From Gemmatimonas sp. (GTDB taxonomy: Bacteria > Gemmatimonadota > Gemmatimonadetes > Gemmatimonadales > Gemmatimonadaceae), in NCBI GenBank assembly GCA_011390885.1, contig JAABRO010000054.1, positions 1 to 64,000 of the forward strand: 64,000 nt of DNA. The letters run 5' to 3'. Position numbers and translations under genes: made by a program. Every line of letters begins with the position of its first letter. Position 1 is the first letter of the stretch. The notes below the pieces were generated by a model, which worked only from the letters and a program-made list of their open reading frames with translations, did no database searches and was not told where the DNA came from. Positions 3,667-20,564 of the stretch are shown here, piece after piece.

Positions 3667-3824
3667 GACGAGCGCCGGAGCGATCGCACCTGCGCCGCGG
3701 CCGCTCCGGTTGCCCGCCGCTTCGATCATGACGAGCTTTCGCCGGTCGCCGCTGCGAGGCGCCCCACTGGCGGTGGCCCGCTGCTGACGGCTGTTCCGCC
3801 TCGGGCGTGCGCCGATACCGAATC

Positions 3825-3837
3825 GTGACCGGATCGT
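3825..3837 (+). promoter_or_regulatory. Candidate PhoB box upstream of udk-phoB-phoR
   Basis: GTGAC-N5-CGT, 67 bp before the udk start. The same spacing is found upstream of three other phosphate-linked units in the window. GTGAC is the complement of the GTCAC part of classical Pho boxes, which repeat every 11 bp. This is an inference from recurrence only. Confidence 0.3.
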
Positions 3838-3903
3838 CGCCGTGCGAACACGCCTTCCCCGCACTCTGCTCATCGTGTCGAGTCCGCGTCGAGACAATCG
3901 CCC

Positions 3904-4545
3904 GTGAAACCGCTGATCTTCGGGATCGCCGGGGGCACGGGCTCCGGCAAGTCCACCGTGGCGCGGAAGGTCGCCGAGTCGCTCCCCCAGGCCTCGGTTG
4001 CCTTCCTCGAAATGGATGCGTACTACCGGGATTTCTCGCACCTCTCGCGGCACGAGTTGCATCACCATGTGAACTGGGACCACCCCGACGCGTTCGACGT
4101 GGCGCTGCTCGCCTCGCACCTGGAGGCGCTGGCGCGCGGCGAGCCGATCGAGGCCCCGGTCTACGAGTTCGCGACACATTCGCGGAGTGCCGAGGTGCGG
4201 CGAGTGGAGCCGGCGGACGTCATCGTCATCGATGGCATCCTGCTGCTCGCCGATGAGCGGTTGCGCGCCGTCTGCGATGTGAAGGTGTACGTGGACGCCG
4301 ATCCCGACATTCGCCTCGTGAGGCGGATCCGTCGCGACGTCGTCGACCGTGGCCGGACGCTGGACTCGATCCTCGATCAATACTTGTCCACGGTCCAGCC
4401 CATGCACCTGCAGTTCGTCGAGCCCAGCAAGCGGTACGCCGACGTGATCGTGCCGCGCGGCGGCAGCAACACGGTGGCGATCGAGATGCTCGTCGCCAAG
4501 ATCCAGCGCCGCCTGGGTGCGCGCAGCGCGCCGGTGACCCGATGA
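3904..4545 (+). CDS. udk: Uridine kinase
   Basis: Phosphorylates uridine or cytidine to the monophosphate; pyrimidine salvage. The P-loop GGTGSGKST is at residues 10-18, followed by the nucleoside-binding stretch MDAYYRDF (38-45) and NWDHPDAFD (56-64). At 213 residues it has normal size. The start is GTG at 3904, immediately before the conserved N terminus KPLIFGIAGG. Its end overlaps phoB by 4 bp (ATGA), so a salvage kinase is translationally linked to a response regulator. A bacterial phosphoribulokinase-like enzyme is the alternative, but size and motifs favour Udk. Confidence 0.93.
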   Translation: MKPLIFGIAGGTGSGKSTVARKVAESLPQASVAFLEMDAYYRDFSHLSRHELHHHVNWDHPDAFDVALLASHLEALARGEPIEAPVYEFATHSRSAEVRRVEPADVIVIDGILLLADERLRAVCDVKVYVDADPDIRLVRRIRRDVVDRGRTLDSILDQYLSTVQPMHLQFVEPSKRYADVIVPRGGSNTVAIEMLVAKIQRRLGARSAPVTR

Positions 4546-5261
4546 ATCCGCCGCCGGTGGTCGCCGACCGGGTGCTCGTCGTGGACGATGAACCCGAGAT
4601 CGTCGCGCTCGTCGCGTATCACCTCGCCAAGGCCGGCTACCGCGTCTCCACCGCCTCGAGTGGCCAGGACGCCATCGAGCTCGCCCGGCGCGAACGGCCC
4701 GCGCTCATCGTGCTCGACCTGATGCTCCCCGGCATGTCCGGCTTCGACGTGCTCGAGAGCCTGCGCGCCGAGGACCAGACGCGCGACCTCGCGGTGCTCA
4801 TGCTCACCGCTCGGCGCGAGGAGGTCGATCGCATCCGTGGCCTCTCCCTCGGCGCCGACGACTACCTCACCAAGCCGTTTTCACCGCAGGAGCTCGTGCT
4901 GCGGGTGGCCGCGATCCTGCGCCGCGTGTCGCAGCCGCAGGCCACGAGCGCCGACCTGCTGCTCATCGGACCGATCAAGATCGACCGCGCGGCGCTCGCG
5001 GTGCACGTGGCCGACCAGCCGGTGGAGCTCACCCCCACCGAGTACAAGCTGCTGCTCACGCTCGCCGAGCGCCGCGGGCGCGTGCAGGGGCGCGGCCACC
5101 TGCTCGAGACGGTCTGGGATGCGGCGCCGGACATCCAGACGCGTACGGTCGACATGCATGTGCAGCGGCTGCGCGCCAAGCTCGGGCCGGCCGGCGACCT
5201 GATCGAGACCGTGCGGGGCTTCGGCTACCGTCTGCGCTCGTCGCCGTCGCGCGGCGCCTGA
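4542..5261 (+). CDS. phoB: PhoB-type response regulator (receiver plus OmpR winged helix)
   Basis: Transcription factor of a two-component system. The receiver domain occupies about residues 10-125, with acidic pocket VVDDE (13-17), phospho-acceptor Asp59 in VLDLMLPG, Thr89 and Lys111. The OmpR/PhoB winged helix fills the C-terminal part, with the recognition-helix stretch TRTVDMHVQRLRAKLG. It lies between udk (4-bp overlap) and the phoR-type kinase. The linked pst, phoU, ppx, ppk and pit genes support phosphate control. The exact ligand is inferred from context. Confidence 0.92.
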   Translation: MNPPPVVADRVLVVDDEPEIVALVAYHLAKAGYRVSTASSGQDAIELARRERPALIVLDLMLPGMSGFDVLESLRAEDQTRDLAVLMLTARREEVDRIRGLSLGADDYLTKPFSPQELVLRVAAILRRVSQPQATSADLLLIGPIKIDRAALAVHVADQPVELTPTEYKLLLTLAERRGRVQGRGHLLETVWDAAPDIQTRTVDMHVQRLRAKLGPAGDLIETVRGFGYRLRSSPSRGA

Positions 5262-5283: not shown

Positions 5284-6684
5284 GTGCGGCTGACGCAACG
5301 GCTCGTCCTGCATTCCGTCGCGACCATCGTCGCGCTGCTGCTCCTCGTCGGCGTGGTCGCGGAGCGCCGGGTCACGTCGCAGGTACGGTCGGCCACGCCG
5401 GCGCTGTTCCCGGCCGACGAATCCGCGCTCGTGGGCTCGCTGCGTCGCGACCTCGCCCTCGCCGGCCTCGGGGCGCTGGTGCTTGGCGTCCTCGCCGCAC
5501 GCCTGCTCGGCCGCTCCATCGCCGCCCCGATCGAGTCGCTGCGCGATGTGTCGCAGGCGCTGGCCGACGGGGATCTCGTGCGCCGGCCGTCACGCGCCGG
5601 CGTCACGGAGGTGCGAGAGCTGGGTGAGGCGCTGCGCCGCCTGGCCGAGCAGTCGAGCGCTCGCGTGGCCGCGCTGCAGGCCGACGAGGCGTTGCTCGCC
5701 GCGCTCACCGAGTCGCTGAACGAGGGCGTGATCGCCGTCGATGCGCGGCAGCGCGTGATGCGCATCAACGAGACGGCGCGACAGATCCTGCGGCTGCGCG
5801 AGGCCGTGCCGTTTCCGGCGGACTACCTGCCCCGCGACCGTGTCATGCGGGAGTCGCTCGCGGCGGTGCTCCGTGGCGAGGACGCGCCGCCATCCGAGGT
5901 GCGGGTGGACGATCGCACCCTCTCCCTCACCGCGCGGCCGCTTCCCGACGGCGGCGCCATCCTCGCGCTGTACGACCTCACACCCTTCCGGCGCCTCGAG
6001 GCGGTGCGTCGCGACTTCGTGGCCAACGTGTCGCACGAACTGCGGACGCCCCTCACCGTGATCACCGGTTTCGTGGAGACGCTCGGCGACGAGGAGTTGC
6101 CGCCGGAGCTGCGTCGGCAGTTCCTCTCCATGACGGCCACGAACGTGCGGCGCATGCAGCGCATCGTGGACGATCTGCTCGACCTCTCGCGCATCGAATC
6201 CGGCGGCTGGCTGCCGAACCCGGCGGAGCTCGATGTGCGCGCGCTGTTCGCGGAGATCATGGCGCCGCTCACCGATGATGCGGCGCGGAAGGGCGTCACG
6301 CTCGACAGCCGCATCGCCGATGCCGCCGGCACGGCCTACGCCGACCCGACCGCCGCGCGCCAGGTGCTGAGCAACCTCGGCGAGAACGCACTGCGTCACA
6401 CCACCAGCGGCTCGGTCACGCTCTTCGCGGAGCACACGGCCGACGGCGTGTGGCTGGGCGTGCGCGACACGGGCAGCGGCATCCCGGATGAGCACCTGCC
6501 GCGCATCTTCGAGCGCTTCTACCGGGCCGACCCGGGGCGCTCACGCGAGGCGGGCGGAACAGGCCTCGGGCTCTCCATCGTGCGGCACCTGGCCGAGGCC
6601 CATGGCGGGCGCGTCCGGGCCGAGAGCACGGTGGGGGTGGGCACGACGATCGCGGCGCTCTTCCCGCACGCCCCGACGATCTGA
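5284..6684 (+). CDS. phoR: PhoR-type membrane sensor histidine kinase
   Basis: Partner kinase of the preceding response regulator. An N-terminal membrane helix (about 8-25) is followed by a short periplasmic stretch and a second helix (about 58-76). Then come HAMP-like sequence (77-130), a PAS domain (about 138-240), the dimerisation helix with phospho-acceptor His251 in SHELRTPL, and an ATPase domain with NLGENALRH, DTGSGIP and GTGLGLSIV. This is the standard PhoR layout in 466 residues. Start is GTG at 5284, 22 bp after phoB. Phosphate signalling through PstSCAB-PhoU encoded 7-12 kb away is likely. Confidence 0.92.
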   Translation: MRLTQRLVLHSVATIVALLLLVGVVAERRVTSQVRSATPALFPADESALVGSLRRDLALAGLGALVLGVLAARLLGRSIAAPIESLRDVSQALADGDLVRRPSRAGVTEVRELGEALRRLAEQSSARVAALQADEALLAALTESLNEGVIAVDARQRVMRINETARQILRLREAVPFPADYLPRDRVMRESLAAVLRGEDAPPSEVRVDDRTLSLTARPLPDGGAILALYDLTPFRRLEAVRRDFVANVSHELRTPLTVITGFVETLGDEELPPELRRQFLSMTATNVRRMQRIVDDLLDLSRIESGGWLPNPAELDVRALFAEIMAPLTDDAARKGVTLDSRIADAAGTAYADPTAARQVLSNLGENALRHTTSGSVTLFAEHTADGVWLGVRDTGSGIPDEHLPRIFERFYRADPGRSREAGGTGLGLSIVRHLAEAHGGRVRAESTVGVGTTIAALFPHAPTI

Positions 6685-6723: not shown

Positions 6724-7611
6724 TCAGCGCCGGGCCGGCCAGGCGCGCGCGACGAGTCGCGGCAGCAGAGCCGTCGCACTGCCCGTGAGGGGCACGATGG
6801 ACGGCCCCGTGCGCTGCCCCGCCATGCTGGGATTGACCACCAGCACGGTGGCCCCGTGCGAGGCCGCCAGCCACGGCAGCGAGGCGGCCGGCTCCACCAT
6901 GTTGCTCGTTCCGACGGACAGGAACACGTCGCAGGCGAAGGTGGCACTGCGCGCGCGCTCCAGCGCCTCCGACGGCAGCGGTTCGCCGAACCAGACCACG
7001 TCCGGACGCAGCGGCGCGCCGCAGGCGGCGCACGGCGGCGGCGACGTGGGAGCCTGTTCGCTGCCGCTCACGTCCATCGACTCGGGAGCCACGAAGGCCG
7101 GCGAGCAGTCGGCGCTGCAGCGCACGCGCATGAGGCTGCCGTGCAGCGACACCACGTCCTCGTGACCAGCCGCTTCGTGCAGCCCATCCACGTTCTGGGT
7201 GAGCAGCGTGCAGCGCGGCGACTTGCGTGCCAGCCAGACGAGCGCCTCGTGGGCGGGATTCGGCTGCGCGTGCCGAACCGCGGCGCGCCGGAGCGCATAC
7301 CAGCTCCAGACGCGCGCCGGATCGGACGCGAACGCCTCCGGTGTGGCGAGTTCCTCGGGGCGGAAACGCGCCCACCAGCCCGTGAGGGCGTCACGGAACG
7401 TGGGAATGCCACTCTCGGCGGAGACGCCCGCGCCGGTGAGCACGGTCACCACTTCGGACGACCGCAGCATGGCAGCGGCCGACGTCAGGGCGACATCGAG
7501 ATCCTTGGAAAGGCCCGGGGCGGCAGCCGGCGTCGCCGGCATCGTGACGAGTCGGGCGCGGCCCGCATCGGTCGCCGCCCCTCGGGTCGAGGCAGGGGGA
7601 TTCGAACTCAT
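6724..7611 (-). CDS. cobB: NAD-dependent protein deacylase, sirtuin class III (CobB-like)
   Basis: Removes acyl groups from lysines using NAD. With the ATG at 7611 it has 295 residues: GAGVSAESGIPTFR at 60-73, TQNVDGLH at 138-145, catalytic His157 in HGSL, and zinc cysteines 165, 169, 194 and 197. The substrate pocket has Tyr105-x-x-Arg108 (WYALRR), the signature of sirtuins that prefer succinyl and other acidic acyl groups. ATG codons at 7629 and 7542 are alternative starts; no clear ribosome site decides among them. It is divergent from the TonB receptor gene and convergent with phoR. Confidence 0.88.
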   Translation of the reverse strand: MSSNPPASTRGAATDAGRARLVTMPATPAAAPGLSKDLDVALTSAAAMLRSSEVVTVLTGAGVSAESGIPTFRDALTGWWARFRPEELATPEAFASDPARVWSWYALRRAAVRHAQPNPAHEALVWLARKSPRCTLLTQNVDGLHEAAGHEDVVSLHGSLMRVRCSADCSPAFVAPESMDVSGSEQAPTSPPPCAACGAPLRPDVVWFGEPLPSEALERARSATFACDVFLSVGTSNMVEPAASLPWLAASHGATVLVVNPSMAGQRTGPSIVPLTGSATALLPRLVARAWPARR

Positions 7612-7722
7612 GACCACGCGAAGCTGCATCGGTCCGAGCCCGCTGGCAACGGGTGCCGTGGGGATTTTTTCCGTGCTCCGGTCGCGTCGGCGCCCCAATG
7701 CTCGAGTCCGCTTTCCGCGCTC

Positions 7723-7735
7723 GTGACACAATCGT
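7723..7735 (+). promoter_or_regulatory. Candidate PhoB box upstream of the TonB receptor
   Basis: GTGAC-N5-CGT, about 100 bp before the receptor ATG at 7835. It shares phasing with the motif upstream of udk, the FN3 lipoprotein and pstC. Confidence 0.3.
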
Positions 7736-7834
7736 TGCCGAACCGTGCGGTCCCCGAGACCCAGGTCACGAAGCTTTCTCCCATCGGCCGCGGGGACCTT
7801 CGGCCGGGTCGGGACACTCTTCCGGGATACTCGC

Positions 7835-10648
7835 ATGTCCTTCGTTCGTCTGTCGTCTTTCGTCGCCGTGCGGCGCGCCCTCGCGGGCAGCGCGCGCGGG
7901 ACGTTCTTCGTGTTCACCGTGCTTCTTTCCCTGTTCCTGCCGGCAACCCGTGCAACGGCGCAGGGCACCCCGGTCGGCCGCATCGCGGGCCGCGTGATCG
8001 ACGCCGAGACCGGTCAGGGGATCGCCGGCGTCGGCGTGCAGATCGTCGGCACGACGCTCGGCGCCATGACGGGCGTCGACGGTCGCTATGCGATCGCCCA
8101 GGTGCCCGCCGGCACCGTTACCCTGCAGGTGCGTCGCATCGGCTACGCCCAGAAGACCATCACCGGGATCCTGCTCACCGCCGGCACCACGCTCGAGCAG
8201 AACGTCACCATGGAAGGCGCCAAGGTGGAGCTCACCGCCGTGACCGTCTCCGCCGCCTCGGAGCGCGGCAGCGTGAACTCGGCGCTGGATGCGCAGCGCA
8301 CCGCCACCGGGATCGTGAACGCCATCACCGCCGAGCAGATCAGCAAGAGCCCGGACGGCGACGCGGCCAAGGCGATCCAGCGTGTGAGCGGCGTGACGGT
8401 GCAGGACGGCCGCAGCGTCTTCGTGCGCGGCCTGGGCGAGCGCTACACCGTGACGAACCTGAACGGTGCCCGCATGCCGAGCCCGGAACCCGAGAAGCGT
8501 TTCGTGCCGCTCGACATGTTTCCGTCCGGCCTGCTGCAGTCCATCAACGTGAGCAAGACGTTCACCCCCGACCTCTCCGGCGACTTCTCGGGCGCCTCGG
8601 TCGACATCCAGACGCGCGAGTTTCCGGCGCGTCGCTCGGTGACGTTCAACGCCTCGCTCGGCGCGAACGAACTCGCGACGGGCCGCTCGATCCAGGCAGC
8701 GCCCACGGCAGGCGCCGAGTGGGCCGGCCTCGCGGCCGGCAACCGTCCGCTGCCGTCGCAGCTCGCCACCGCATCGTCGGTCGCGCAGCTCACCACGCGC
8801 CCCGCCGTGAACGGCGCGATCAACGCGCTCCGCAACACGTGGACGCCGGTGCGCCAGAGCGGCCTGCCGAGCGGCTCGCTCGGCGTGTCGGTGGGCGGCC
8901 AGGATCCGTTCTTCGGCCTGCGCATCGGCTACATCGGCTCGTTCACCTACTCCGCCACGCAGGACGTGCGCTCGGGCGACTACCAGGCCAACCCGATCCA
9001 GCGCGACGGTCGTCCGGAAGTGCTCGAGTCCTGGACCGGCGAAGGCAGCAACTTCGGCGTGACGTGGGGCGGCATGTTCAATCTCAGCAGCCTCATCACC
9101 TCGAACACGCGCCTTTCGCTCAACAACACCTACACGCGCAGCGCCGACAACGAGGCCCGCCGCTCGACGGGCGAGGCATTCGCGTTCTCGCTCGCCAACG
9201 TGGAGCGCAACACGCTGCGCTACGTCGAGCGCGCGATCCGCAGCACGCAGCTCAAGGGCGAGCACACGCTCGGCAGCAACGATCAGCTCGACTGGTCGTT
9301 CTCCACCTCCGGCGTGCTGCGCAAGGAGCCCGACCGCTCCGACCTCGTGTATGCGCAGTTCGGTGAGGGGGAGCCGTTCTCGTGGAGCGATGGCAACCCC
9401 GATGTGGCGCGCCGCACGTTCAGCAACCTGGACGAGAGCAACCTCGTCTACGCGGCCAACTACAAGCGCACGCTCGGCAGCGGCGCCAACGCCCCGTCCG
9501 TCAAGCTTGGCGCCACGTTCCGCAACACCGATCGCGATGCCGTGAACCGGCAGTTCTCGATCATCTCCACCTTCGTGCCGCTCGATGCGCGCTCGCGTCC
9601 GGCCGAGGAGCTGTTCGACGGCCGCTTCACGGGCGAGAACGACAATGTCTTCAACGTGCTCAACGTCTCCGAGGACGGCCTGTACACGGCCACGGAGCGC
9701 CTCTCGGCCGGCTACCTCATGGCCGAGCTTCCGGTTGGCGAGCGCCTCAAGTTCATCGGCGGCGCCCGCGTCGAGCAGGCGAAGATCGACGTGAATACGT
9801 CGCTCTCCAACGGCCAGTTCCTGAACTCGTCGCTCGACAACACCGACGTGCTGCCCGCGCTGGTGGTCAACTTCAAGACGGGCGACCGCGGACAGCTCCG
9901 CGCCTCGGCCTCGCAGACGCTCGCACGCCCCGAGTACCGCGAACTCTCGCCCGTGCAGTACCTCGAGGTGGTCGGTGGCCAGATCACGCGCGGCAACAGT
10001 GACCTCGTGCGCACGCTGATCCAGAGCTACGACCTCAAGTACGAACTGTTCCCCAACGCGGGCGAGGTGCTGAGCATCGGCGTGTTCGCGAAGCGCTTCG
10101 ACAAGCCCATCGAGCGCATCGACATCTCCACGGGCGGCCAGCCGTTCGTGTCGTTCTTCAACGCGGCGTCGGCGAGCAACCTCGGCCTCGAGCTCGAGGC
10201 CCGGAAGGGGCTGGGCGGCATCAGCGAGAAGCTGGAACCGATCGCCGTGTTCTCCAACGTGACGCTCATGCAGAGCGACATCGTGGTGGGCGAGGGCGCT
10301 TCGGCGAACACCAATGCGAACCGCCCCATGATGGGCCAGGCCCCGTGGGTGGTGAATGCGGGTGCGACCTACACCGCCTCCACGAGCGGCCTGTCGGCCA
10401 CGCTGCTCTACTCGGCCGTGGGCGAGCGCATCTTCAGCGCGGGCACGGTGCCGTTCCCCGATGTGTACGAGCAGCCGCGGCACATGGTGGACATGTCGCT
10501 GCGCGTGCCGCTCGGCGACCGCTGGACGTGGCGTGTGGACGCGCGCAACCTGCTCGACGCCCCGTTCCGCCTCACGCAGGGCCCGGTGACGCGCGAAGAG
10601 TACCGCACCGGCCGCCAGATCGCGTTCGGCGTGCAGTGGCGCCAGTGA
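7835..10648 (+). CDS. TonB-dependent outer-membrane receptor with N-terminal carboxypeptidase-like domain
   Basis: Outer-membrane energised channel, 937 residues from ATG 7835. A signal peptide ends near ATAQG (about 44). It is followed by a carboxypeptidase-regulatory-like beta sandwich (about 48-135: GRIAGRVIDAETGQGIAG), a plug domain (about 165-290, with VSGVTVQDGRSVFVRGLGER) and a C-terminal barrel ending in a typical aromatic-rich strand. I preferred ATG 7835 over an upstream in-frame start because it directly precedes the signal peptide. It lies between phoBR and pst, next to the FN3 lipoprotein, and has a candidate PhoB box. Uptake of a phosphorus compound is a reasonable inference, not shown. 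A strong terminator follows. Confidence 0.88.
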   Translation: MSFVRLSSFVAVRRALAGSARGTFFVFTVLLSLFLPATRATAQGTPVGRIAGRVIDAETGQGIAGVGVQIVGTTLGAMTGVDGRYAIAQVPAGTVTLQVRRIGYAQKTITGILLTAGTTLEQNVTMEGAKVELTAVTVSAASERGSVNSALDAQRTATGIVNAITAEQISKSPDGDAAKAIQRVSGVTVQDGRSVFVRGLGERYTVTNLNGARMPSPEPEKRFVPLDMFPSGLLQSINVSKTFTPDLSGDFSGASVDIQTREFPARRSVTFNASLGANELATGRSIQAAPTAGAEWAGLAAGNRPLPSQLATASSVAQLTTRPAVNGAINALRNTWTPVRQSGLPSGSLGVSVGGQDPFFGLRIGYIGSFTYSATQDVRSGDYQANPIQRDGRPEVLESWTGEGSNFGVTWGGMFNLSSLITSNTRLSLNNTYTRSADNEARRSTGEAFAFSLANVERNTLRYVERAIRSTQLKGEHTLGSNDQLDWSFSTSGVLRKEPDRSDLVYAQFGEGEPFSWSDGNPDVARRTFSNLDESNLVYAANYKRTLGSGANAPSVKLGATFRNTDRDAVNRQFSIISTFVPLDARSRPAEELFDGRFTGENDNVFNVLNVSEDGLYTATERLSAGYLMAELPVGERLKFIGGARVEQAKIDVNTSLSNGQFLNSSLDNTDVLPALVVNFKTGDRGQLRASASQTLARPEYRELSPVQYLEVVGGQITRGNSDLVRTLIQSYDLKYELFPNAGEVLSIGVFAKRFDKPIERIDISTGGQPFVSFFNAASASNLGLELEARKGLGGISEKLEPIAVFSNVTLMQSDIVVGEGASANTNANRPMMGQAPWVVNAGATYTASTSGLSATLLYSAVGERIFSAGTVPFPDVYEQPRHMVDMSLRVPLGDRWTWRVDARNLLDAPFRLTQGPVTREEYRTGRQIAFGVQWRQ

Positions 10649-10664
10649 CGAGCGCATCGAGCCA

Positions 10665-10704
10665 GTGACGCGTTCGTGACACCACTGTCGTGAACCGATG
10701 ACAG
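10665..10704 (+). promoter_or_regulatory. Candidate PhoB box array upstream of the FN3 lipoprotein
   Basis: Direct repeats at exact 11-bp steps: GTGACGC (10665), GTGACAC (10676), a poor unit (10687) and ATGACAG (10698). The last matches the complement of the enteric Pho half-site. Part of the stretch also forms the palindrome CACTGTC-N10-GACAGTG (10683-10706). The orientation is opposite to enteric Pho boxes, which lowers confidence. Confidence 0.35.
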
Positions 10705-10721
10705 TGTGACGGTAACCTGAG

Positions 10722-10760
10722 GGGATGAGAGCATCGTTGCTCTCATCCCTCTCTTTTTTT
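10722..10760 (+). terminator. Rho-independent terminator after the TonB receptor
   Basis: Perfect 12-bp stem (10722-10733 with 10738-10749), four-base loop, then a T-rich tract with seven consecutive T. It ends only about 20 bp before the ATG of the next gene, so it may also limit or attenuate transcription into it. Confidence 0.88.
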
Positions 10761-10780
10761 CTCGATACCACGGGTTGCTC

Positions 10781-12538
10781 ATGTCCCTCGCCATGACGCG
10801 CTGGCTGCCTCGCTTTGGCGTGCTCGCCAGCCTCCTCTTCGTTGCTGCCTGCAGCGACGACAACACGACCGAGCCGCAGCCGCAGCCGCAGCCGCTGACG
10901 GCGCCGGCCGGTGTGGCCGGCACGTCGCCGTCGCCGACGAGCATTCGCGTCACGTGGTCGGCCGTCACCGGCGCGACCTCGTACGAAGTGGATCGCGCGA
11001 CCGGCACGGGCGCCTTCGCCGCCGCCGGCACGGCCACGACGACGGAGCTCGTCGTCTCGAACCTCTCGCCCGAAACGGACTACCGGTTCCGCGTCCGCGC
11101 GCTGCGTGGCACCGAGCAGGGGCCGTATTCCACCGAAGCCACGGTGCGGACCAGCAACCGCGCCACCGTGCAGGTCTCGGCCGACATCACCACGAACACC
11201 ACCTGGACGTCGACGAACATCTACCAGCTCACCCGCGTGATCTCGGTGGCCAACGGCGCGATCCTCACGATCGAGCCGGGCACGAAGATCATCGGTGGAC
11301 CGATCACGCCGGGCCAGGCCCCGCCGGTGACGGCGCTGATGGTGCTGCGCGGCTCGCGCATCGTGGCGAACGGTACGCGCACCGCGCCGATCGTGATGAC
11401 CTCGTCGGCCGCCGAAGGCCAGCGCGCGCCTGGTGACTGGGGCGGCCTGATCATCGTGGGTAACGCCCGCTCCAACCGCACCGGCCGCGTTGTCGTGGAA
11501 GGCCCGTTCCCGGCCGATACGGTCAGCTGGAATGGTGGCAACAACGACCTCGACAACTCGGGCGAGCTGCGCTACGTGCGTGTCGAGTTCGCCGGCGCCG
11601 CCGCGATCCTGAACGTGGAACTCAACGCCTTCTCCATGTACGCCGTGGGCAGCAGCACGCGCCTGGAGAATCTGCAGGCCATTCGCGGCCTGGACGACAT
11701 GTTCGAGTGGTTCGGCGGCACGGTGGACGGCCGCAACCTGGTGTCGTACGAGTCGGGCGACGACCACTTCGACGGATCGGAAGGCTACCGCGGTCGCAAC
11801 CAGTTCCTGATCGCGCTGCAGACCGGTCCGCGCGTCACGCCGCGCCCCGGCAACCCCGGCGCCCTGTCGTCCGAACAGAGCGGTTTCGAGAATGATGGTT
11901 GCGGCTCGGCCTCCGGCACCTGCGCGCAGGGCTTCAACTCCACGCCCTACAACATGCCGGTGTACGCGAACTTCACCGTCGTGGGCCCGGGCCCGGGCGT
12001 GCTGCCCGCGCGTGCCGGCGGCGACGGCGGCCTCGGCGCCAACATCCGCCGTGGCACGGGTGGCGTGTGGATGAACGGCATCCTCGCCCGCTGGCCGGAA
12101 GCGGCCTTCTCGGTGTTCGATCCGGAGACGAACCAGCGCATCACCGAGGACTCGCTCAACATCCGCAACCTGCTCCTCGCCGACAACAACCGCGACTTCG
12201 ACGCGGTCGGCGCCACGAACCGGTTCGGTCAGGCGGACAAGTTCACGAACAACCAGATCCGGACCACGACCAACGCGGCGCACACGCTCTTCGCGAACGT
12301 GCCCGCGGCTTCGGTCGCGATCGCGAACAACTTCGCCTTCGACTGGCGTCCGGCCACGGGTGCGGCCGGCCAGCTGCTCCGTGAGGGCGGCACGGGCACC
12401 ACGCTCCCCGGTCGCATTCCGGCCCGCGTGACCAACTTCTTCGGTGGCACGATGGCGGGCACCACGTACGTCGGCGCCGTCGACCCGGCCTCGACCGATC
12501 CCTGGTACGCCGGCTGGACCACGTACTACCGCAACTGA
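10781..12538 (+). CDS. Lipoprotein with fibronectin type III domain and beta-helix-like region
   Basis: Predicted lipoprotein of 585 residues. The lipobox is LFVAACSDD with lipid-bearing Cys24. A proline-rich linker precedes an FN3 domain (about 38-125: VTWSAVTGATSYEVDR, then LSPETDYRFRVRAL). The remaining 450 residues are Gly/Asn-rich with repeated strand patterns (ILTIEPGTKIIG, then GDWGGLIIVG), like surface-exposed right-handed beta-helix proteins. Start is ATG 10781, just after the terminator hairpin. Proteins of this type often sit next to TonB receptors in Bacteroidota and Gemmatimonadota. A role as surface partner of the receptor under phosphate limitation is inference from its place. 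Confidence 0.82.
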   Translation: MSLAMTRWLPRFGVLASLLFVAACSDDNTTEPQPQPQPLTAPAGVAGTSPSPTSIRVTWSAVTGATSYEVDRATGTGAFAAAGTATTTELVVSNLSPETDYRFRVRALRGTEQGPYSTEATVRTSNRATVQVSADITTNTTWTSTNIYQLTRVISVANGAILTIEPGTKIIGGPITPGQAPPVTALMVLRGSRIVANGTRTAPIVMTSSAAEGQRAPGDWGGLIIVGNARSNRTGRVVVEGPFPADTVSWNGGNNDLDNSGELRYVRVEFAGAAAILNVELNAFSMYAVGSSTRLENLQAIRGLDDMFEWFGGTVDGRNLVSYESGDDHFDGSEGYRGRNQFLIALQTGPRVTPRPGNPGALSSEQSGFENDGCGSASGTCAQGFNSTPYNMPVYANFTVVGPGPGVLPARAGGDGGLGANIRRGTGGVWMNGILARWPEAAFSVFDPETNQRITEDSLNIRNLLLADNNRDFDAVGATNRFGQADKFTNNQIRTTTNAAHTLFANVPAASVAIANNFAFDWRPATGAAGQLLREGGTGTTLPGRIPARVTNFFGGTMAGTTYVGAVDPASTDPWYAGWTTYYRN

Positions 12539-13383: not shown

Positions 13384-14502
13384 ATGCCGTCCTGCCCCTT
13401 CCCGACCCGTCCGGCGCCCCGCCGCCTCGTCCTGCTGCTCTCGGCCGCGCTGATGGCCGCGTGCACACCCGGCGCCGATGAGGCGGCCGAGCGCGCGACC
13501 CGGCTCGCGCGTGCCAACGTGGACCTGCTGGGCGCGGGCGCGACGTTCCCGTATCCCTTGTACGCGCGCTGGTTCAACACGTACGCGCAGGAGACCGGCG
13601 TGCGCATCAACTATCAGTCCATCGGATCCGGCGGCGGCATCCGTCAGCTCATTGCGGGTACCGTCGATTTTGGCGCCACCGACGTGCCGATGACCGATGA
13701 GGAGATTGCGCGCATCCCGAGCGGACGCGTCATCCACGTGCCCACCGTGCTCGGCGCCGTCGTGATCACGTACAACCTGCCCGGCCTCTCTCGTCCGCTC
13801 CGCCTCGCGCCCGATGTGCTCGCCGACCTCTTCCTCGGCGTGATCACCCGCTGGGACGATCCGCGCATCGCGGCGCTCAACCCCGGCGTGGCCCTCCCCG
13901 ATCGCGACGTGCTCGTGGTGCATCGCTCCGACGGCAGCGGCACGTCGTACATCTTCACCGACTATCTCGCCAGCGTCAGCCCCGCGTGGGCCGCGGGCCC
14001 CGGCCGCAGCAAGGATGTGCGCTGGCCCGTCGGGCTCGGGGGCAAGGGCAACGAGGGAGTGGCAGGTCAGGTGAAGCAGATGCCCGGCGCCGTCGGCTAT
14101 GTGGAGGCGACCTATGCACGCCAGAACCGCCTGCCGACGGCCCTGCTCCGGAATGCCGCAGGCAACTTCGTGTCGCCGACCGCCTTCGAGGTGGCGGCCG
14201 CGGCCACGAGCGCGCTCGAGGCCGCCGGCGATTCCGCCGACCTGCGACGCTCGATCGTGAACGCGCCCGGCGCGCAGGCGTATCCGATCGCCAGCTTCAC
14301 CTGGATGCTCGTGGCCCCGGAGCTGATCGGTGCCGAGAAGACCGCATCGCTCTATCGCTTCGTGCACTGGGCGCTGCACAGCGGCGATCAGCTGGCGCGG
14401 GAGCTCGGCTATGAGCCCCTGCCGACGGACCTCGTGGATCGCCTGCTCCCCATGCTCGACCGGCAACTCGGCCTGCCCGACGATTCCGCAGCGCCGCGTT
14501 GA
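13384..14502 (+). CDS. pstS: Phosphate ABC transporter substrate-binding lipoprotein PstS
   Basis: Binds phosphate outside the inner membrane for PstCAB. It is a lipoprotein (MAACTP, Cys27) of 372 residues. Phosphate-contact loops are visible: GAGATFP (50-56), SIGSGGG (79-85), FGATDVPM (96-103) and RSDGSGTSYIF (from about 181). That order is diagnostic for PstS. It follows the lipoprotein gene by 16 bp and is followed by a 119-bp gap with a separate promoter for pstC, so binding protein and permease can be expressed at different levels. Confidence 0.95.
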   Translation: MPSCPFPTRPAPRRLVLLLSAALMAACTPGADEAAERATRLARANVDLLGAGATFPYPLYARWFNTYAQETGVRINYQSIGSGGGIRQLIAGTVDFGATDVPMTDEEIARIPSGRVIHVPTVLGAVVITYNLPGLSRPLRLAPDVLADLFLGVITRWDDPRIAALNPGVALPDRDVLVVHRSDGSGTSYIFTDYLASVSPAWAAGPGRSKDVRWPVGLGGKGNEGVAGQVKQMPGAVGYVEATYARQNRLPTALLRNAAGNFVSPTAFEVAAAATSALEAAGDSADLRRSIVNAPGAQAYPIASFTWMLVAPELIGAEKTASLYRFVHWALHSGDQLARELGYEPLPTDLVDRLLPMLDRQLGLPDDSAAPR

Positions 14503-14621: not shown

Positions 14622-15608
14622 ATGACTGCCCCCACCCTGCCGCCGGTCGCCCATCGCCGTCCCGTCCGCACCGACGTGCGCGTCGACGCGACGCCGGCGC
14701 GCGGGTACGGAGACCGTGTCTACGGCGTGTTCATCACGACCTGTGCACTCGCCGTGCCGGCGCTCCTCGTGCTGGTGGCTGCGGTGATTGCGCGCTCGGC
14801 GTGGCCCGCCATCGAGCAGGTGGGAACGGAGCTGCTCGTGGGCCGTACCTGGGACGTGCCCCGTGGCCAGTTCGGCGCGCTGCCGGCCCTGCTCGGCACG
14901 CTCGCGTCGTCGCTGTTCGCGCTCCTGCTCGCGACGCCGCTCGCTCTCGGCGTCGCTATTTACGTCACGGAGCTGGCGCCGCTTCGGCTGCGCAAGCCGG
15001 TCGCATTCCTGGTCGACGTGCTCGCCGCCATTCCCAGCGTGGTCTACGGTCTCTGGGCGTTGTACGTGCTCGTGCCGTTCCTGCGCGAGCACGCCATGCC
15101 ATTCCTTGGCGAGACCCTTGGGCTGCGCGAACTGGCGCTGTTCCGCGGCCCGGCCTACGGGCCAAGCCTGCTGGCCGCGTCGCTCGTGCTGGCGATCATG
15201 GTCCTCCCCTACATCGCGTCCGTCGCGCGCGAGGTGCTGCAGGCCGTGCCGCGCGCACAGCGCGAAGCGGCGCTCGCACTCGGGGCCACCCGCTGGGAGA
15301 TGGTGCGCGACGCGGTGCTGCCGTACGCGCGCTCCGGGCTGGTCGGCGCGGTCATCCTCGGCCTCGGGCGCGCACTCGGCGAGACGATGGCCGTCACCAT
15401 GGTGATCGGCAACCGGCACGAAGTCCCCACCTCGCTGTTCCAGCCGGCGTACACCATGGCGTCGCTGCTCGCCAACGAGTTCGCGGAAGCCTCGGGCGAA
15501 CTGCACCTCTCGGCGCTCATGGCCGTCGCCGGCCTCCTGCTGGCCATCACGCTCGTGGTCAACGCCATTGCCCGGTGGCTCGTGTGGCGCATGGAGCGGC
15601 GCGCATGA
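14622..15608 (+). CDS. pstC: Phosphate ABC transporter permease PstC
   Basis: Inner-membrane permease half of PstSCAB, 328 residues with about six membrane helices. The cytoplasmic coupling loop reads EAALALGATRWEM, with GRALGETMAVTMVIGN after it, both typical of PstC. The PstC-type interhelical region YGLWALYVLVPFLRE is present. ATG 14622 has its own -10 element. Its stop overlaps the pstA ATG by 4 bp. The N terminus has about 38 extra residues before the first helix. Confidence 0.95.
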   Translation: MTAPTLPPVAHRRPVRTDVRVDATPARGYGDRVYGVFITTCALAVPALLVLVAAVIARSAWPAIEQVGTELLVGRTWDVPRGQFGALPALLGTLASSLFALLLATPLALGVAIYVTELAPLRLRKPVAFLVDVLAAIPSVVYGLWALYVLVPFLREHAMPFLGETLGLRELALFRGPAYGPSLLAASLVLAIMVLPYIASVAREVLQAVPRAQREAALALGATRWEMVRDAVLPYARSGLVGAVILGLGRALGETMAVTMVIGNRHEVPTSLFQPAYTMASLLANEFAEASGELHLSALMAVAGLLLAITLVVNAIARWLVWRMERRA

Positions 15609-16528
15609 CCGTGCCGGACGCAGCGCGGACGGCGGGTGCCGCTTCCTCCCGCGCACTGGGCGCCACGCGGGCCATGCAGCGGCGACGACGCGCCGGCTCG
15701 ACCATGACCGTGCTGATCTGGGCAGCCGCCGGCCTCAGCCTGCTGCCGCTCGTGCTCATCGCCGGCCACCTGCTCGTCGGCGGCGTACGCGTGCTGACAC
15801 CCACCTTCTTCACGGCGCTCCCCGCGCCGCCGGGCGTGGCGGGTGGCGGAGTGGCCAATGGCATTGCGGGGACGCTCGTCCTGATCGCGCTCGCGTCGGT
15901 GATCGGGCTGCCGGTCGGGCTGGGTGCCGGATTGTACCTCGCGGAGCATCGCAGCACGCGTCTGGCCACGATTGTGCGCTACCTGAGCGACGTGCTCAGC
16001 GGCCTCCCCTCCATCGTGCTCGGCATCTTCGCGTGGGAGGTGGTGGTGCGGCCGAGCGGACAGTTCTCGGCATTGGCCGGCGGGTTTGCGCTGGGCATGA
16101 TCATGATCCCGCTGGTCGCGCGCGCCACGGAGGAGATGGTCCGCCTCGTGCCGGTCGCGCTGAGCGAGGCAGCCCTCGCACTCGGCTTCACCCGCTGGCG
16201 CACCTCGCTCTCCATCGTGTTGCGCACCGCGCTCCCCGGCATCGTCACGGCAGCCCTCGTCGCCGTGGCGCGCGTCGCTGGCGAGACGGCACCGCTGCTC
16301 TTCACCGCATTCGGCACGCCGTACTGGTCGCTGCGGGTCGATCAGCCGATCGCCGCCCTGCCGCTGCAGATCTACAACTACGCCATGAGCCCGTACGACG
16401 ACTGGCGTGCCCAGGCGTGGGGCGGCGCGCTGGTGCTCATCGTGCTCGTGCTCGTCATCAGCATGCTGGCGCGTCGCGCAACGCGGTCCCGCTTCGCGTC
16501 GGCGAGCGGTGGCGCCGTGAATGACTGA
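15605..16528 (+). CDS. pstA: Phosphate ABC transporter permease PstA
   Basis: Second permease subunit, 307 residues. The start ATG 15605 overlaps the pstC stop (ATGA) and precedes a short basic N terminus and six helices. Conserved PstA features are LPSIVLGIFAWEVVV, EEMVRLVPVALSEAALALGFTRWRT (coupling loop) and ARVAGETAPLLFTAFG. The last 8 bp overlap pstB1, consistent with balanced translation of the complex. Confidence 0.94.
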   Translation: MTVPDAARTAGAASSRALGATRAMQRRRRAGSTMTVLIWAAAGLSLLPLVLIAGHLLVGGVRVLTPTFFTALPAPPGVAGGGVANGIAGTLVLIALASVIGLPVGLGAGLYLAEHRSTRLATIVRYLSDVLSGLPSIVLGIFAWEVVVRPSGQFSALAGGFALGMIMIPLVARATEEMVRLVPVALSEAALALGFTRWRTSLSIVLRTALPGIVTAALVAVARVAGETAPLLFTAFGTPYWSLRVDQPIAALPLQIYNYAMSPYDDWRAQAWGGALVLIVLVLVISMLARRATRSRFASASGGAVND

Positions 16529-17408
16529 CGTGTCGCGTCCGGTCACCGCCAGTGCGCCGTCTGAAGCTGGCAGCGCGGCGAGGGCGCACCTCACCCCGGC
16601 CGTCGCGCTGCGCGCCGTCGACGCCGCCGAGGACACGCGTAGCGGCAGCGCCGTGCCCATCAGCACGCACGGCCTCGAGGCCTCATACGGATCCGTACGC
16701 GCGGTGCGCGAAGCGACGCTCACGTTCACGGCCGGCCGCGTGACGGCCATCATCGGCCCGTCCGGCTGCGGGAAGTCCACGCTGCTGCGCTGCCTCAACC
16801 GGCTGCACGAAACCGTTCCGTCGGCACGCGTGCGCGGCGACGTGCGGATCGGCGGCGAGAGCATCTATGCGGCCGGCGTGAACGCGATCGCCGTGCGCCG
16901 CGGCATCGGGTTCGTCGCGCAGCGGCCCACCCCCTTCCCGACGATGTCCATTCGCGAGAACGTGGTGGCTGGACTGCAGGTGCTCGGCATCCGTGCAACC
17001 GGCAGTGAACTCGACGACCGGGTGGAGGAGGTGCTGCAGCGTACCGGGCTGTGGAACGAGGTCGCCGACCGACTCGACGGCAACCCGATGTCGCTCTCAG
17101 GCGGACAGCAGCAGCGCCTCTGCCTCGCGCGGGCCCTCGCACCGGCCCCGCGCGTGCTGCTGCTCGACGAACCCACTGCGGCCCTCGATCCGGGGAGCAC
17201 GCAGCGCATCGAGGAACTGGTCTACGCCCTGCGCGGCGACGTCACGGTCGTGATCGTCACGCACAACATGCAGCAGGCCGCGCGCGTCTCCGATCACACG
17301 GCCTTCATGCTCGCCGGTGAGCTCGTGGAGGTGGGACCGACGCGGCTCCTGTTCACTGCGCCGGTCGATCGGCGCACCGAGGCCTACGTGACGGGCCGCT
17401 TCGGGTGA
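16521..17408 (+). CDS. pstB: Phosphate ABC transporter ATPase PstB, first copy
   Basis: ATPase of the Pst importer, 295 residues. Residues 1-45 are a non-conserved, disordered-looking extension absent from the second copy. Walker [10 protein letters not shown] is at 79-87, Q-loop [12 protein letters not shown] is unusual (the second copy has [11 protein letters not shown]), followed by signature LSGGQQQR and Walker [13 protein letters not shown]. It overlaps pstA by 8 bp and pstB2 by 4 bp. The two copies share the ending TEAYxTGRFG, so they arose by duplication and then diverged. Confidence 0.93.
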
Positions 17409-18205
17409 CCGCGCCTCTCGACCGGCCGGACGCATCCGCCCGCCCCGCCGCGCGCGGTCGCGTCGAACTCGATCAGTGGTCCGTGTGGTTCGGCGCGACG
17501 GCCGCGCTGCAGGACGTGTCCCTCGCCATCGCACCCGGCGGCGTGACGGCGCTGATCGGCCCGTCGGGGTGCGGCAAGTCCACCCTGCTCCGCTCGATCA
17601 ACCGGCTCGACGACGCCACCGTCGGCATCCGCCACGCCGGCCACATCCGGCTCGATGGCGAGGATGTGCACGACCCGCGCACCGACACCTCCGTGCTCCG
17701 GCAGCGGGTCGGGATGGTGTTCCAGCGCTCGAACCCATTCCCGCGCTCGGTCTTCGACAACGTCGTCTACGGCCCGCGCCTCAACGGCGAGACGGACCGG
17801 CGCACCCTCGAGGAGATCGCCGAGCGGTCCCTGCGCCGCGCCGCACTGTGGGACGAGGTGAAGGACCGACTGCGCGACTCGGCGCTGCGCCTCTCCGGCG
17901 GCCAGCAGCAGCGACTCTGCATCGCGCGCGCCCTCGCCAACGATCCGGGCGTCCTGCTCCTCGACGAACCCGCCAGCGCGCTTGATCCGCTCGCCACGAC
18001 GCGCATCGAGGAATTGCTTTACGACTTGCGGCGCGAGGTCACGATCGTCATCGTGACGCACAACCTGCAGCAGGCCGCCCGCGTGAGCGATCGCACGGCC
18101 TTCCTGCTCGCCGGCCGCCTCGTCGAAGTGGACGAGACCGCGCGGCTCTTCACGAGCCCGCGCGAGGCGCGCACGGAAGCCTACATCACGGGACGGTTCG
18201 GCTGA
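17405..18205 (+). CDS. pstB: Phosphate ABC transporter ATPase PstB, second copy
   Basis: 266 residues, closer to the standard PstB length and sequence than its neighbour. Walker [10 protein letters not shown] (52-60), Q-loop [19 protein letters not shown], signature [15 protein letters not shown] and Walker [13 protein letters not shown] are intact. GTG 17405 overlaps the pstB1 stop (GTGA) and its own stop shares one base with the phoU ATG (TGATG). Having both ATPases between one pstA and one phoU suggests either a PstB1-PstB2 heterodimer or two alternative ATPases. Confidence 0.93.
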
Positions 18206-18897
18206 TGGTCGATGCACCGGGCGGCTACCGCCACTTTCACGACGATCTCGCGCTCCTCAAGACGCGCCTGCTCGAGATGTCGGAGCGCGCCGAGTCGCTG
18301 GTCGAGCTGGCCATCGACTCCCTGCTCGAGCGTGATCGTGCTAAGGCGGAGGCCGTCATCGAGAGCGACCGCGAACTCGATCGCATGGAAGTGGAGGTCG
18401 AGCAGCTCGCGATCTCGCTGCTGGCGCTGCAGCAGCCCATGGCGCGCGACCTGCGCTTCCTCATCGGCGCGATCAAGGTGTCGAGCGACGTGGAGCGCAT
18501 CGGCGACCACGCCGTGAACATCGCGCAGTGCACCGAACGCCTCGTGGACCAGCGCCTCGCGGTGCCCCCCACGCCCGCACTAGCCGACATGGCGCGCCGC
18601 GCCCGTCGCATGCTGAGCGACGCGCTCGACGCCTTCATTCGCGGCGATGGCGCGCTGGGCCGCGCCATCGGCAAGGCCGATGACGAAGTCGATGCCTTTC
18701 ACGAAGGCATCTTCCGGCTGCTGCTCACGCACATGATGTCCGACGCGCGCACGATCAACGCGTCGCTCGAACTGCTGCTCGTCTCGCGCAACCTCGAGCG
18801 CGTGGCCGACCTGGCCACCAACATCGGCGAGAACGCCGTATACCTCGCCGAGGGGAAGCAGATCCGTCACCGCTTCGACGAGATCGCCGAGCGGTAG
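18205..18897 (+). CDS. phoU: Phosphate signalling protein PhoU
   Basis: Links PstSCAB to the PhoR kinase and keeps the Pho regulon off in phosphate excess. Its 230 residues form two repeats of a three-helix bundle. Metal-cluster motifs of the type ExxxDxxxD are visible (VIESDRELDRME and IGKADDEVDAFHE), with SSDVERIGDHAVNIA and SRNLERVADLATNIGE in the two halves. It is the last gene of the pst operon and is coupled to pstB2. Confidence 0.96.
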   Translation: MVDAPGGYRHFHDDLALLKTRLLEMSERAESLVELAIDSLLERDRAKAEAVIESDRELDRMEVEVEQLAISLLALQQPMARDLRFLIGAIKVSSDVERIGDHAVNIAQCTERLVDQRLAVPPTPALADMARRARRMLSDALDAFIRGDGALGRAIGKADDEVDAFHEGIFRLLLTHMMSDARTINASLELLLVSRNLERVADLATNIGENAVYLAEGKQIRHRFDEIAER

Positions 18898-18951
18898 CGC
18901 GGCGGCCTCGTTCGCCGCAGGGTGCGATCGGCGGACCGGGCGCCGTCGGTC

Positions 18952-19707
18952 TCAGCCGCGCCCGCCGCTCCGCAGGAAGTCCGCGAACTCCGCCGGGAGG
19001 CCGGCCGCGATCACCTTGGCCGCGGCGCGTTCCACGTCGTACGCCACGCGTTCGATCCGCACCTGCAGCGCCCCCAGCTCGCTCACCGTGACGAGCACGT
19101 AGCCGGCGCGCGGGTCACCGTCCTTGGGGCGCCCGACGCTTCCGGTGTTCACGTAGTGCACGCCGTCCACCACGCGATGCCAGGGCTTGTGCGTGTGACC
19201 AAACGCCACGAGGTCGCCGTCTCGTGCCTCGACGGACGCGCCCATCTTGCGCAGGAAGTCGTCGGGTCGGTCTTCCGTCACGTAGATGAGGTTGCTGCTC
19301 GGATGGGCGTGCAGCAGCACCACGCGTGGCCCCGCGGTGTGGCCGCCGAGCGGTCGCAGGTCGAGCCGGAACGGCAGTGCGGCGAGCCGCGCCTTCGACG
19401 CGTCGCTCGTGTTCGCGAGCGTCCACGCGAAACTCTGGTGGGCGAGCTCCTCCTGGCGCGCATTCTCCGACCGGCAGCCGCAGTGCTTGTACGCGTGCGC
19501 CACCGTGCTGTCGTAGTTGCCGGCCACGCCCGGAATCGCTTCGGCGTCGAGGCGCGCGATCACGGCGTCCGGCTCGGCGGAGTATCCCACGAGGTCACCG
19601 AGGTGATACCGCGAGGCCGCAGGGTGTCGCGCACGGAGGTCGGCGAGCACGGCCTCGAGGGCGTCGAGATTCGCGTGGATGTCGGAGAGCAGCGCGAGGA
19701 TCGGCAT
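18952..19707 (-). CDS. Calcineurin-like metallophosphoesterase
   Basis: Two-metal phosphoesterase, 251 residues. Metal ligands appear in order: SDIHAN (8-13), GDLVGY (37-42), GNYD, HAHPS and GHTH. The YfcE/MJ0936-like layout suggests small phosphodiesters or phosphoproteins as substrates, but the substrate cannot be read from sequence. A Cys pair (HCGCRSE) is unusual. It is convergent with phoU and lies just downstream of an arsR gene on the same strand, 25 bp away, so the two may be cotranscribed. Its neighbours suggest a phosphate-related role. Confidence 0.9.
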   Translation of the reverse strand: MPILALLSDIHANLDALEAVLADLRARHPAASRYHLGDLVGYSAEPDAVIARLDAEAIPGVAGNYDSTVAHAYKHCGCRSENARQEELAHQSFAWTLANTSDASKARLAALPFRLDLRPLGGHTAGPRVVLLHAHPSSNLIYVTEDRPDDFLRKMGASVEARDGDLVAFGHTHKPWHRVVDGVHYVNTGSVGRPKDGDPRAGYVLVTVSELGALQVRIERVAYDVERAAAKVIAAGLPAEFADFLRSGGRG

Positions 19708-19732
19708 GACGCAGCGTTGGGGGTGACGAGAA

Positions 19733-20134
19733 TCAGCAGGGTGAGCGGCGGCGCAGGTCGCACGCCACGGCGCCCTCGGCGCGCTCAGCGGCCAGCCCGG
19801 CCTGCGAGGGCAGCGCCTCGCGCACCCACGCGAGCAGGCCGGCGTGCAGCGCGTCCACGGGCTCGCTCAGGCGGTAGTGCGCCAGCCGCGGCCCGCGCGT
19901 GGCCTCCACCCACCCGATCCGCCGCAGGTAGGCGAGGTGACGGGAGACGGTGGGCTGCGGCAGCCCGAGCACACCCACCAGGTCGCACACGCAGAGCTCC
20001 CCGGCGGCCAGCAGGTTGAGCAGGCGCACGCGCGTGGGATCGGCAAGGCCGGCCGCCAGTTCAGCGGCCCGCGCGGCGACCGACGGACTCTGCGCGTCGG
20101 CGGTTACCTGACTTTCATATTCGGCTAGACGCAT
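19733..20134 (-). CDS. arsR: ArsR-family metalloregulatory repressor, second copy
   Basis: 133-aa winged-helix repressor with DPTRVRLL, metal motif CVCD and helix LPQPTVSRHLAYLRR. A third and fourth Cys lie at the C terminus (VACDL and RRSPC). I chose ATG 20134 over an in-frame TTG four codons earlier because GGAG lies six bases upstream of the ATG. Divergent from arsD-arsA, so it probably controls both directions from the 64-bp gap. It resembles arsR at 0.8-1.3 kb only in family-level motifs. Confidence 0.92.
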   Translation of the reverse strand: MRLAEYESQVTADAQSPSVAARAAELAAGLADPTRVRLLNLLAAGELCVCDLVGVLGLPQPTVSRHLAYLRRIGWVEATRGPRLAHYRLSEPVDALHAGLLAWVREALPSQAGLAAERAEGAVACDLRRRSPC

Positions 20135-20198: not shown

Positions 20199-20564
20199 GT
20201 GACACGCCGAGCCCTCCCTCAGTTCGACATCGCGCCCGGGCACACGCTCGACGGCGAGGTCGTGGTCTTCGACCCGGCCATGTGCTGCGAAACGGGCGTC
20301 TGCGGCCCCAGCGTCGACGAGTCACTGCTCACGGCGGCGCGCGACCTGCGCTGGCTCACGGCCCAGGGGGCAACCGTCACGCGCCACAACCTCGGGCAGG
20401 AGCCGACCGCCTTCGTGCACTACGAGCCGGTCCGTACGCTGCTCGCAGAGCGCGGCATGGACGCCTTGCCGGCCACCTGGGTGAACGGGCGGCTGCTCGT
20501 GTCCGGCCGCCACGCCACGCGCGACGAACTCCTCGCCGCCCTCGCACCCACGGCGACCGCGTGA
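20199..20564 (+). CDS. arsD: Arsenite metallochaperone ArsD
   Basis: Passes As(III) to the ArsA ATPase. 121 residues. The transfer site is intact: FDPAMCCETGVCG with Cys29, Cys30 and Cys35 matching the essential Cys12/13/18 of plasmid ArsD. The N terminus is about 17 residues longer than in the plasmid protein. The start is GTG 20199. Its stop overlaps the arsA GTG (GTGA), giving the tight coupling usual for arsD-arsA. Confidence 0.95.
   Translation: MTRRALPQFDIAPGHTLDGEVVVFDPAMCCETGVCGPSVDESLLTAARDLRWLTAQGATVTRHNLGQEPTAFVHYEPVRTLLAERGMDALPATWVNGRLLVSGRHATRDELLAALAPTATA

Follow-up and report, generated by a model that had tools for sequence, protein, structure and literature searches.

What do a receptor and a lipoprotein do in the middle of a phosphate gene cluster? 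The question is raised by a stretch of Gemmatimonas sp. DNA (positions 1 to 64,000 of contig JAABRO010000054.1, assembly GCA_011390885.1; the whole 64-kb stretch is called the window below), in which genes for a TonB-dependent transporter (TBDT) and a large lipoprotein are placed between phoBR and pst on the + strand. Both genes lie where an original prediction, made from the letters of the DNA, had put them. The pair is the counterpart of ElpS/CC_0171 of Caulobacter crescentus, and probably that of Fjoh_0545/0546 (PUSIV) of Flavobacterium johnsoniae as well. We consider it fairly likely that the pair is this phylum's ElpS/CC_0171 module, a β-helix lipoprotein with a dedicated receptor that would be switched by PhoB together with udk-phoBR and pst.

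Linkage of the pair to phosphate genes

The lipoprotein was matched in 77 of 200 genomes sampled from the phylum. Sixty loci were fetched with up to 9 kb per side (one place in each of 59 genomes, two in one); all were picked among the 77 matching genomes, which biases the set to carriers of the gene. A TBDT was found in 57 of the 60 loci, and in 56 it lies directly upstream, on the same strand and within 1.5 kb. phoB was detected in 41 loci, phoR in 36 and either one in 44, while a pst or phoU gene occurs in 28; these counts are lowered because contig ends cut several loci. With at least one phoB, phoR or pst gene in 48 of the 60 loci, the linkage of the pair to phosphate genes is conserved. 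PF00593 matches 26 places in the host genome, 24 of them above the cut-off, and one of the 26 falls within the pho cluster; set against this, the 48 linked loci indicate that linkage of the pair to pho genes goes beyond chance. The lipoprotein itself is single-copy in the host genome (one match).

The receptors also belong together by descent. In a tree computed with FastTree, all 136 linked TBDTs (that of the window plus 135 from the loci) fall into one clade with support 1.0, and 15 other TBDTs of the host genome fall outside. The linked set was collected with linked TBDTs as seeds, and the outgroups come from the host genome and none from other phyla, so the tree speaks for a common receptor type and not for strict exclusivity; two or three of the linked TBDTs in it lie several kb from the lipoprotein gene and do not adjoin it. 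The closest NCBIfam model of the window TBDT is TIGR01782 (TonB-Xanth-Caul) at 242.8 bits, under the cut-off of 310.

A small lipoprotein gene downstream of the pair, ORF3, was detected in 37 of the 60 loci and may encode a third component of the module. Two invariant cysteines stand out in its alignment (A4). No Pfam match was obtained for ORF3 at E≤0.1, and its single-sequence structure model (mean predicted local distance difference test, pLDDT, 37.2) is too poor for use.

Relatives of the pair occur beyond the phylum. A tblastn search of plasmid records with the lipoprotein gave 21 records; in those of Indioceanicola and Sphingomonas, a TBDT and type II secretion genes come after the lipoprotein gene. 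Named genomes were scanned with a 15-sequence alignment and the best 80 loci kept, a set skewed to the Sphingomonas group because ranking was by likeness to a Sphingomonas sequence. In 72 of these best 80 loci a TBDT lies no farther than 1.5 kb from the lipoprotein gene (14 upstream, 58 downstream), and GspD and GspE are both present in 26; the family profile matches in all 80, with 120 β-helix domains at one to three per protein. The lipoprotein and the receptor clade are found, among the loci listed, in Pseudomonadota, Bacteroidota, Poribacteria and others. Many proteins of Alpha- and Gammaproteobacteria (loci L130-L160) hold two or three tandem β-helix domains, with the acidic motif described below in each.

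A repeat before the pair, phoB and pstS

In 61 regions before lipoprotein genes, TGAC-N7-TGAC was counted 30 times, and in 58 regions before TBDTs 8 times, where dinucleotide shuffles gave 0.4 in each case; in 38 regions before ORF3 it was not found. When 25 lipoprotein sites were aligned, units 3 and 4 appeared at the same 11-bp step, conserved though they lie outside the search seed. A repeat model of 41 columns was trained on the lipoprotein sites, with the scored site left out, and judged against a null of first-order resampling. The 1% null level was passed before 26 of 61 lipoproteins, 38 of 58 TBDTs, 4 of 23 pstS and 4 of 48 phoB genes, and before none of 38 ORF3 and none of 38 phoR genes, figures that are read as support and not as exact probabilities since the null is first-order and the genomes are related. 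Stand-alone pstS genes were assembled separately: 8 of 30 loci were dropped as ORF3 or the lipoprotein adjoins, and duplicates (L274 of L240, L281 of L248) were removed from the remaining 62. Of the 60 distinct regions, 25 pass the 1% level and 8 the 0.1% level.

Strong sites number 77 in the 43 loci of nearer families, against 4.8 predicted by the null. Eighteen of the 77 lack an assigned pho gene, and about six of those 18 (L052, L056, L062, L063, L067 and L069) sit, by their coordinates, just before short-form lipoprotein genes. Across the whole window, on both strands, scores of at least 16 occur solely at three positions: 10664, before the lipoprotein, which is a training site and the best, and two sites outside the training set, 3813, before udk-phoBR and second-best in the window, and 7722, before the TBDT. 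The candidate PhoB motif that the original prediction had noted before each member of the pair is thus recovered by the model, both scores exceeding the 99.9% null level (Table 1).

These data give strong support to one element common to phoB, the TBDT, the lipoprotein and stand-alone pstS, and as cis evidence they support membership of the pair in the Pho regulon. We infer that PhoB binds the repeat because it occurs before phoB and pstS. The strong repeat that precedes udk, together with the overlap of udk and phoB, suggests that udk and phoBR form one self-regulated operon. The repeat presumably resembles an E. coli Pho box read backwards; the E. coli-type box itself (CTGTCAT-N5-CTGTCAT, at most one mismatch) was not found in the host genome. 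A shorter pattern, GTGAC-N6-GTGAC, occurs at 12 places in the host genome against 1 for the reversed control, and was rejected as a mark of the regulon as most of its readable places fall inside reading frames.

The features of the locus are collected in Table 1. The phoR-like kinase was also scored against NF046044 PnpS (297 bits, cut-off 400). The hairpin at 10721-10757 is a candidate terminator of the receptor gene or a candidate 5′ mRNA hairpin; in close relatives (L031-L033 and L057) this spot also has a hairpin, but with another sequence and mostly without the T run. The pstB-like tandem is present in many nearer relatives, and a single copy is found in more distant loci. Polyphosphate genes belong to the pst neighbourhood, since genes for an ArsA-like ATPase (20282-22369), Ppx/GppA (22453-24036) and polyphosphate kinase (24086-26299) (- strand) come 3′ of the pst operon. 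The reading frame at 18922-20019 runs on the opposite strand of a phosphoesterase gene and was excluded from all counts.

Table 1. Positions in the window of the pair, the repeats and the adjoining genes.
Feature	Position	Strand	Evidence and remarks
Pho-box-like 11-bp direct repeat before udk-phoB-phoR	3813..3853	+	score 28.9
udk, uridine kinase-like	3904..4545	+	PF00485, 153 bits; overlaps phoB start
phoB response regulator	4542..5261	+	best NCBIfam TIGR02154 PhoB, 242 bits, under cut-off 296
phoR-like sensor kinase	5284..6684	+	TIGR02966 phoR_proteo, 263 bits (cut-off 334)
SIR2 gene	about 6724-7611	-	separates udk-phoB-phoR from TBDT
Pho-box-like repeat before TBDT	7722..7762	+	score 16.9; 99.9% null level 16.1
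TBDT, 937 amino acids	7835..10648	+	ATG 7835; Pfam CarboxypepD_reg, Plug and TonB_dep_Rec_b-barrel
Pho-box-like repeat before lipoprotein	10664..10704	+	four units at 11 bp; score 30.0, site left out
GC-rich hairpin, then seven T	10721..10757	+	between repeat and lipoprotein start
ElpS-type lipoprotein, 585 amino acids	10781..12538	+	ATG 10781; lipobox, FN3, right-handed β-helix (predicted)
ORF3, small lipoprotein, 247 amino acids	12624..13367	+	match in 37/60 loci
pstS phosphate-binding protein	13384..14502	+	TIGR00975, 362 bits, above cut-off 205
pstC permease	14622..15608	+	PF00528
pstA permease	15605..16528	+	PF00528
Two adjoining pstB-like ATPase genes	16521-17408, 17405-18205	+	PF00005
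phoU	18205..18897	+	PF01895, two stretches

Fold and acidic turns of the lipoprotein

The lipoprotein begins with a hydrophobic stretch that runs to AAC, the lipobox ending at C24 (judged by eye on the translation), and carries an fn3 domain at residues 41-122 (Pfam). An AlphaFold2 model built on a 48-sequence alignment has a mean pLDDT of 74.8, with values over 90 for most of residues 131-350 and low confidence in the FN3 and C-terminal regions; its core is a predicted right-handed parallel β-helix from about residue 127 to about 500, so that the architecture of FN3 plus β-helix proposed in the original prediction is retained. The family is without a Pfam model of its own, and the generic Beta_helix model is reached by 2 of the 48 members.

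Such a fold leads to an alternative, in which the lipoprotein is a surface enzyme, a lyase or hydrolase with the pectin-lyase fold, that cleaves a polysaccharide which is phosphorylated or hides phosphate; the TBDT would then take up the fragments, and capturing phosphate itself would not be the task of the lipoprotein. The structural comparison points partly this way, polysaccharide lyases, epimerases and polygalacturonases being among the best matches at Z 19 to 23.5, and the Flavobacterium FI-FIII were likewise modelled on a polygalacturonase and related by their authors to the Caulobacter lipoprotein, according to the accessible part of that paper (PMC8115612). The best matches as a whole (Z 23.5 to 18.6) are near-equal and range over phage tailspikes, alginate epimerases and lyases, NosD, pectate lyases and polygalacturonases; since non-enzymes such as NosD stand among the top rows, the fold alone names no activity, and an enzyme assignment from it was dropped because many unrelated β-helix families score alike. 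A Foldseek search with the model gave no match at E≤0.001 (best E 3.7e-3). By sequence, 43 matches to solved structures were obtained up to E 1, nearly all limited to the FN3 region, and a match to PglA is weak (E 4.7e-5, 22 of 600 bits), covering residues 79-223 and missing the conserved acidic turns.

In the alignment of the 48 sequences, twelve columns hold an acidic residue in 80% or more of the members (E240, D258, E280, E296, D305, D306, E309, D327, D328, D331, E370 and D372), two hold a basic residue that often (R318 and R423), and no His is conserved. A spacing of 22 residues leads from D258 to E280 and from D305-D306-E309 to D327-D328-D331. As this is about one turn of the helix, the carboxylates of successive turns are probably stacked in the modelled structure. 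For the enzyme alternative, the invariant pairs DD305-306 and DD327-328, one turn apart, are a point in favour, whereas the lack of a conserved His and the scarcity of conserved basic residues count against it; on balance we regard an enzyme as unlikely, though worth keeping in view.

With a conserved core of carboxylates and few basic residues, direct phosphate binding is disfavoured, and the acidic surface would be better matched to metal binding or acid catalysis. The twelve acidic against two basic columns and the 22-residue spacing bring up a more daring reading: the lipoprotein might be a calcium-dependent phosphate trap, its stacked carboxylates holding divalent cations that grip phosphate, polyphosphate or phytate, with the metal-phosphate complex being handed to the receptor. 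We put this forward as a speculation with rather poor prospects. If true, it would amount to an outer-membrane route for phosphorus, in several phyla, unrelated to SusD, porins and periplasmic binding proteins.

Proposed role of the pair and comparison with known systems

If the pair is indeed the phylum's ElpS/CC_0171 module, PhoB would turn on udk-phoBR, the TBDT, the lipoprotein and, via a shared operon, pst. The lipoprotein would be lipidated and exposed on the surface; its exposure and its induction by starvation are assumed by analogy with ElpS and the Flavobacterium proteins. It might then bind or trim a phosphorus-bearing ligand, be it an organophosphate, a phosphorylated glycan fragment or a metal-phosphate complex, and pass it to the receptor for TonB-energised import, whereupon periplasmic phosphatases would release phosphate to PstSCAB.

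The Caulobacter and Flavobacterium systems supply the analogy, as far as the accessible parts of the reports go. Phosphate starvation induces elpS, whose product is anchored in the outer membrane (PMC2996285, PMC5172544), and the printed gene order is cc0170 (ElpS)-cc0171-gspC (PMC2996285). In Flavobacterium, SusCD-like clusters and clusters of a TBDT with a lipoprotein that are induced by phosphate depletion have been termed 'phosphate utilisation systems', among them Fjoh_0545/0546, a TBDT plus lipoprotein in the phoBR operon that is strongly induced (PMC8115612).

Several observations weigh against a role of the pair in phosphorus acquisition or against its strict tie to the Pho system. Twelve of the 60 phylum loci are without a pho or pst gene over the thresholds, some of them on short contigs, and the sampled genomes are kin, so that counts are not independent. 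Outside the phylum, a pho or pst gene over the thresholds is nearby in just 9 of the best 80 loci. As for the repeat, 3 of 20 other TBDTs of the host genome also reach the 1% level, and the opposite strand also tops the null at that level (11 of 58 TBDTs, 5 of 61 lipoproteins, 7 of 62 stand-alone pstS, and further 4 pstS, 5 phoB, 1 ORF3 and 0 phoR genes of the loci), which means that the null is too lenient. The conserved surface of the lipoprotein, short of the basic residues expected for direct phosphate binding, argues in the same direction. In the accessible text of the Caulobacter report, deletion of elpS left phosphatase activity unchanged, cc0171 was constitutive, with expression in both rich and poor medium, its deletion was without effect on ElpS, and cell phosphate showed no change (PMC2996285). 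The idea in the original prediction of a receptor and surface lipoprotein in phosphorus acquisition thus stands in part, favoured by analogy with the starvation-induced lipoproteins and opposed by the Caulobacter deletions.

Two alternatives draw on this evidence. The pair might sit in the Pho cluster by history, its ligand being free of phosphorus (for example a glycan or a metal chelate) and in greater demand under phosphate starvation. The few pho and pst genes near loci outside the phylum would fit, as would the nearest curated receptor family, TonB-Xanth-Caul, whose substrate is unspecified; the repeat common to phoB and pstS does not, nor does the response of the Flavobacterium homologues to phosphate depletion and not to N or Fe limitation, as given in the accessible part of that report (PMC8115612), and we think this improbable. 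The authors of the ElpS work, for their part, read the lipoprotein as assisting a phosphatase that is secreted or sits on the surface, which would leave the TBDT to import something else. Overproduction of ElpS, itself without such activity, raised alkaline phosphatase activity in the supernatant, whereas cells lacking elpS showed no difference in that assay (PMC2996285). A dedicated TBDT clade that tracks the lipoprotein across phyla would moreover be needless for a phosphatase helper alone, and a helper role has, in our judgement, only a slim chance of being right.

Set beside the known systems, the phosphorus-module reading, which we continue to prefer, has its closest parallel in ElpS (CC_0170, CCNA_00169) and CC_0171, with the same lipoprotein domain family, an adjoining TBDT and a link to phosphate starvation (accessible part of PMC2996285). 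The likeness was established not with the ElpS sequence itself but through Caulobacteraceae relatives with the printed gene order: the window lipoprotein aligns with a Brevundimonas protein at 30% over 442 columns (E 3e-26), the family profile matches a Phenylobacterium protein at probability 100 (E 2e-55), and Brevundimonas L119, L120 and L123 and Phenylobacterium L121 share the order lipoprotein-TBDT-gspC-gspD-gspE. In the window, by contrast, the TBDT comes first, the lipoprotein has an FN3 domain, and the pair lies between phoBR and pst. Type II secretion genes adjoin the Caulobacter locus, but none of the 61 loci here holds both GspD and GspE, no GspD over the cut-off was found in the host genome, and such genes do not adjoin the Flavobacterium locus in the accessible description.

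PUSIV (Fjoh_0545 with FII, Fjoh_0546) has a TBDT with Plug and CarboxypepD_reg, as here, and a lipoprotein of the pectin-lyase superfamily (IPR011050), beside phoBR and induced by phosphate depletion (accessible part of PMC8115612). It belongs to Bacteroidota, and pst beside the pair is described for the window and, in that text, not for PUSIV. The likeness to Fjoh_0546 is by description, the sequences compared being those of Bacteroidota relatives (L154, L158 and L169-L173).

With PusCD/SusCD the pair shares the working plan of a TBDT plus a surface lipoprotein, whereas the 'SusCD-like' label fails when taken as kinship. The SusC model TIGR04056 gives 43 bits against a cut-off of 368.25, no SusD domain is among the Pfam matches of the window lipoprotein or of the 48 family members, and the lipoprotein is a predicted β-helix; descent from SusCD was therefore rejected, as was SusC/RagA kinship of the TBDT. 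SusD lipoproteins are a different, helical family. β-helix polysaccharide lyases, epimerases and polygalacturonases resemble residues about 127-500 in overall fold, but there is no sequence match and the conserved residues differ.

A phosphate-starvation pair of TBDT and β-helix lipoprotein is thus an already published kind, as the accessible part of PMC8115612 makes clear. As far as the literature was searched, the novelties are the siting of the pair between phoBR and pst in this phylum, the repeat shared with other phosphate genes, the clade that unites the receptors, the conservation of the carboxylate turns and ORF3 as a third partner; the search gave no paper that deals with the pair in Gemmatimonadota, although one may exist. 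The wiring to the phosphate cluster is more direct in this phylum than in Caulobacter, the repeat marking phoB and pstS too, and the fifteen-year-old question of what ElpS and its receptor carry can now be tested, with the acidic turns, the shared repeat and ORF3 as targets.

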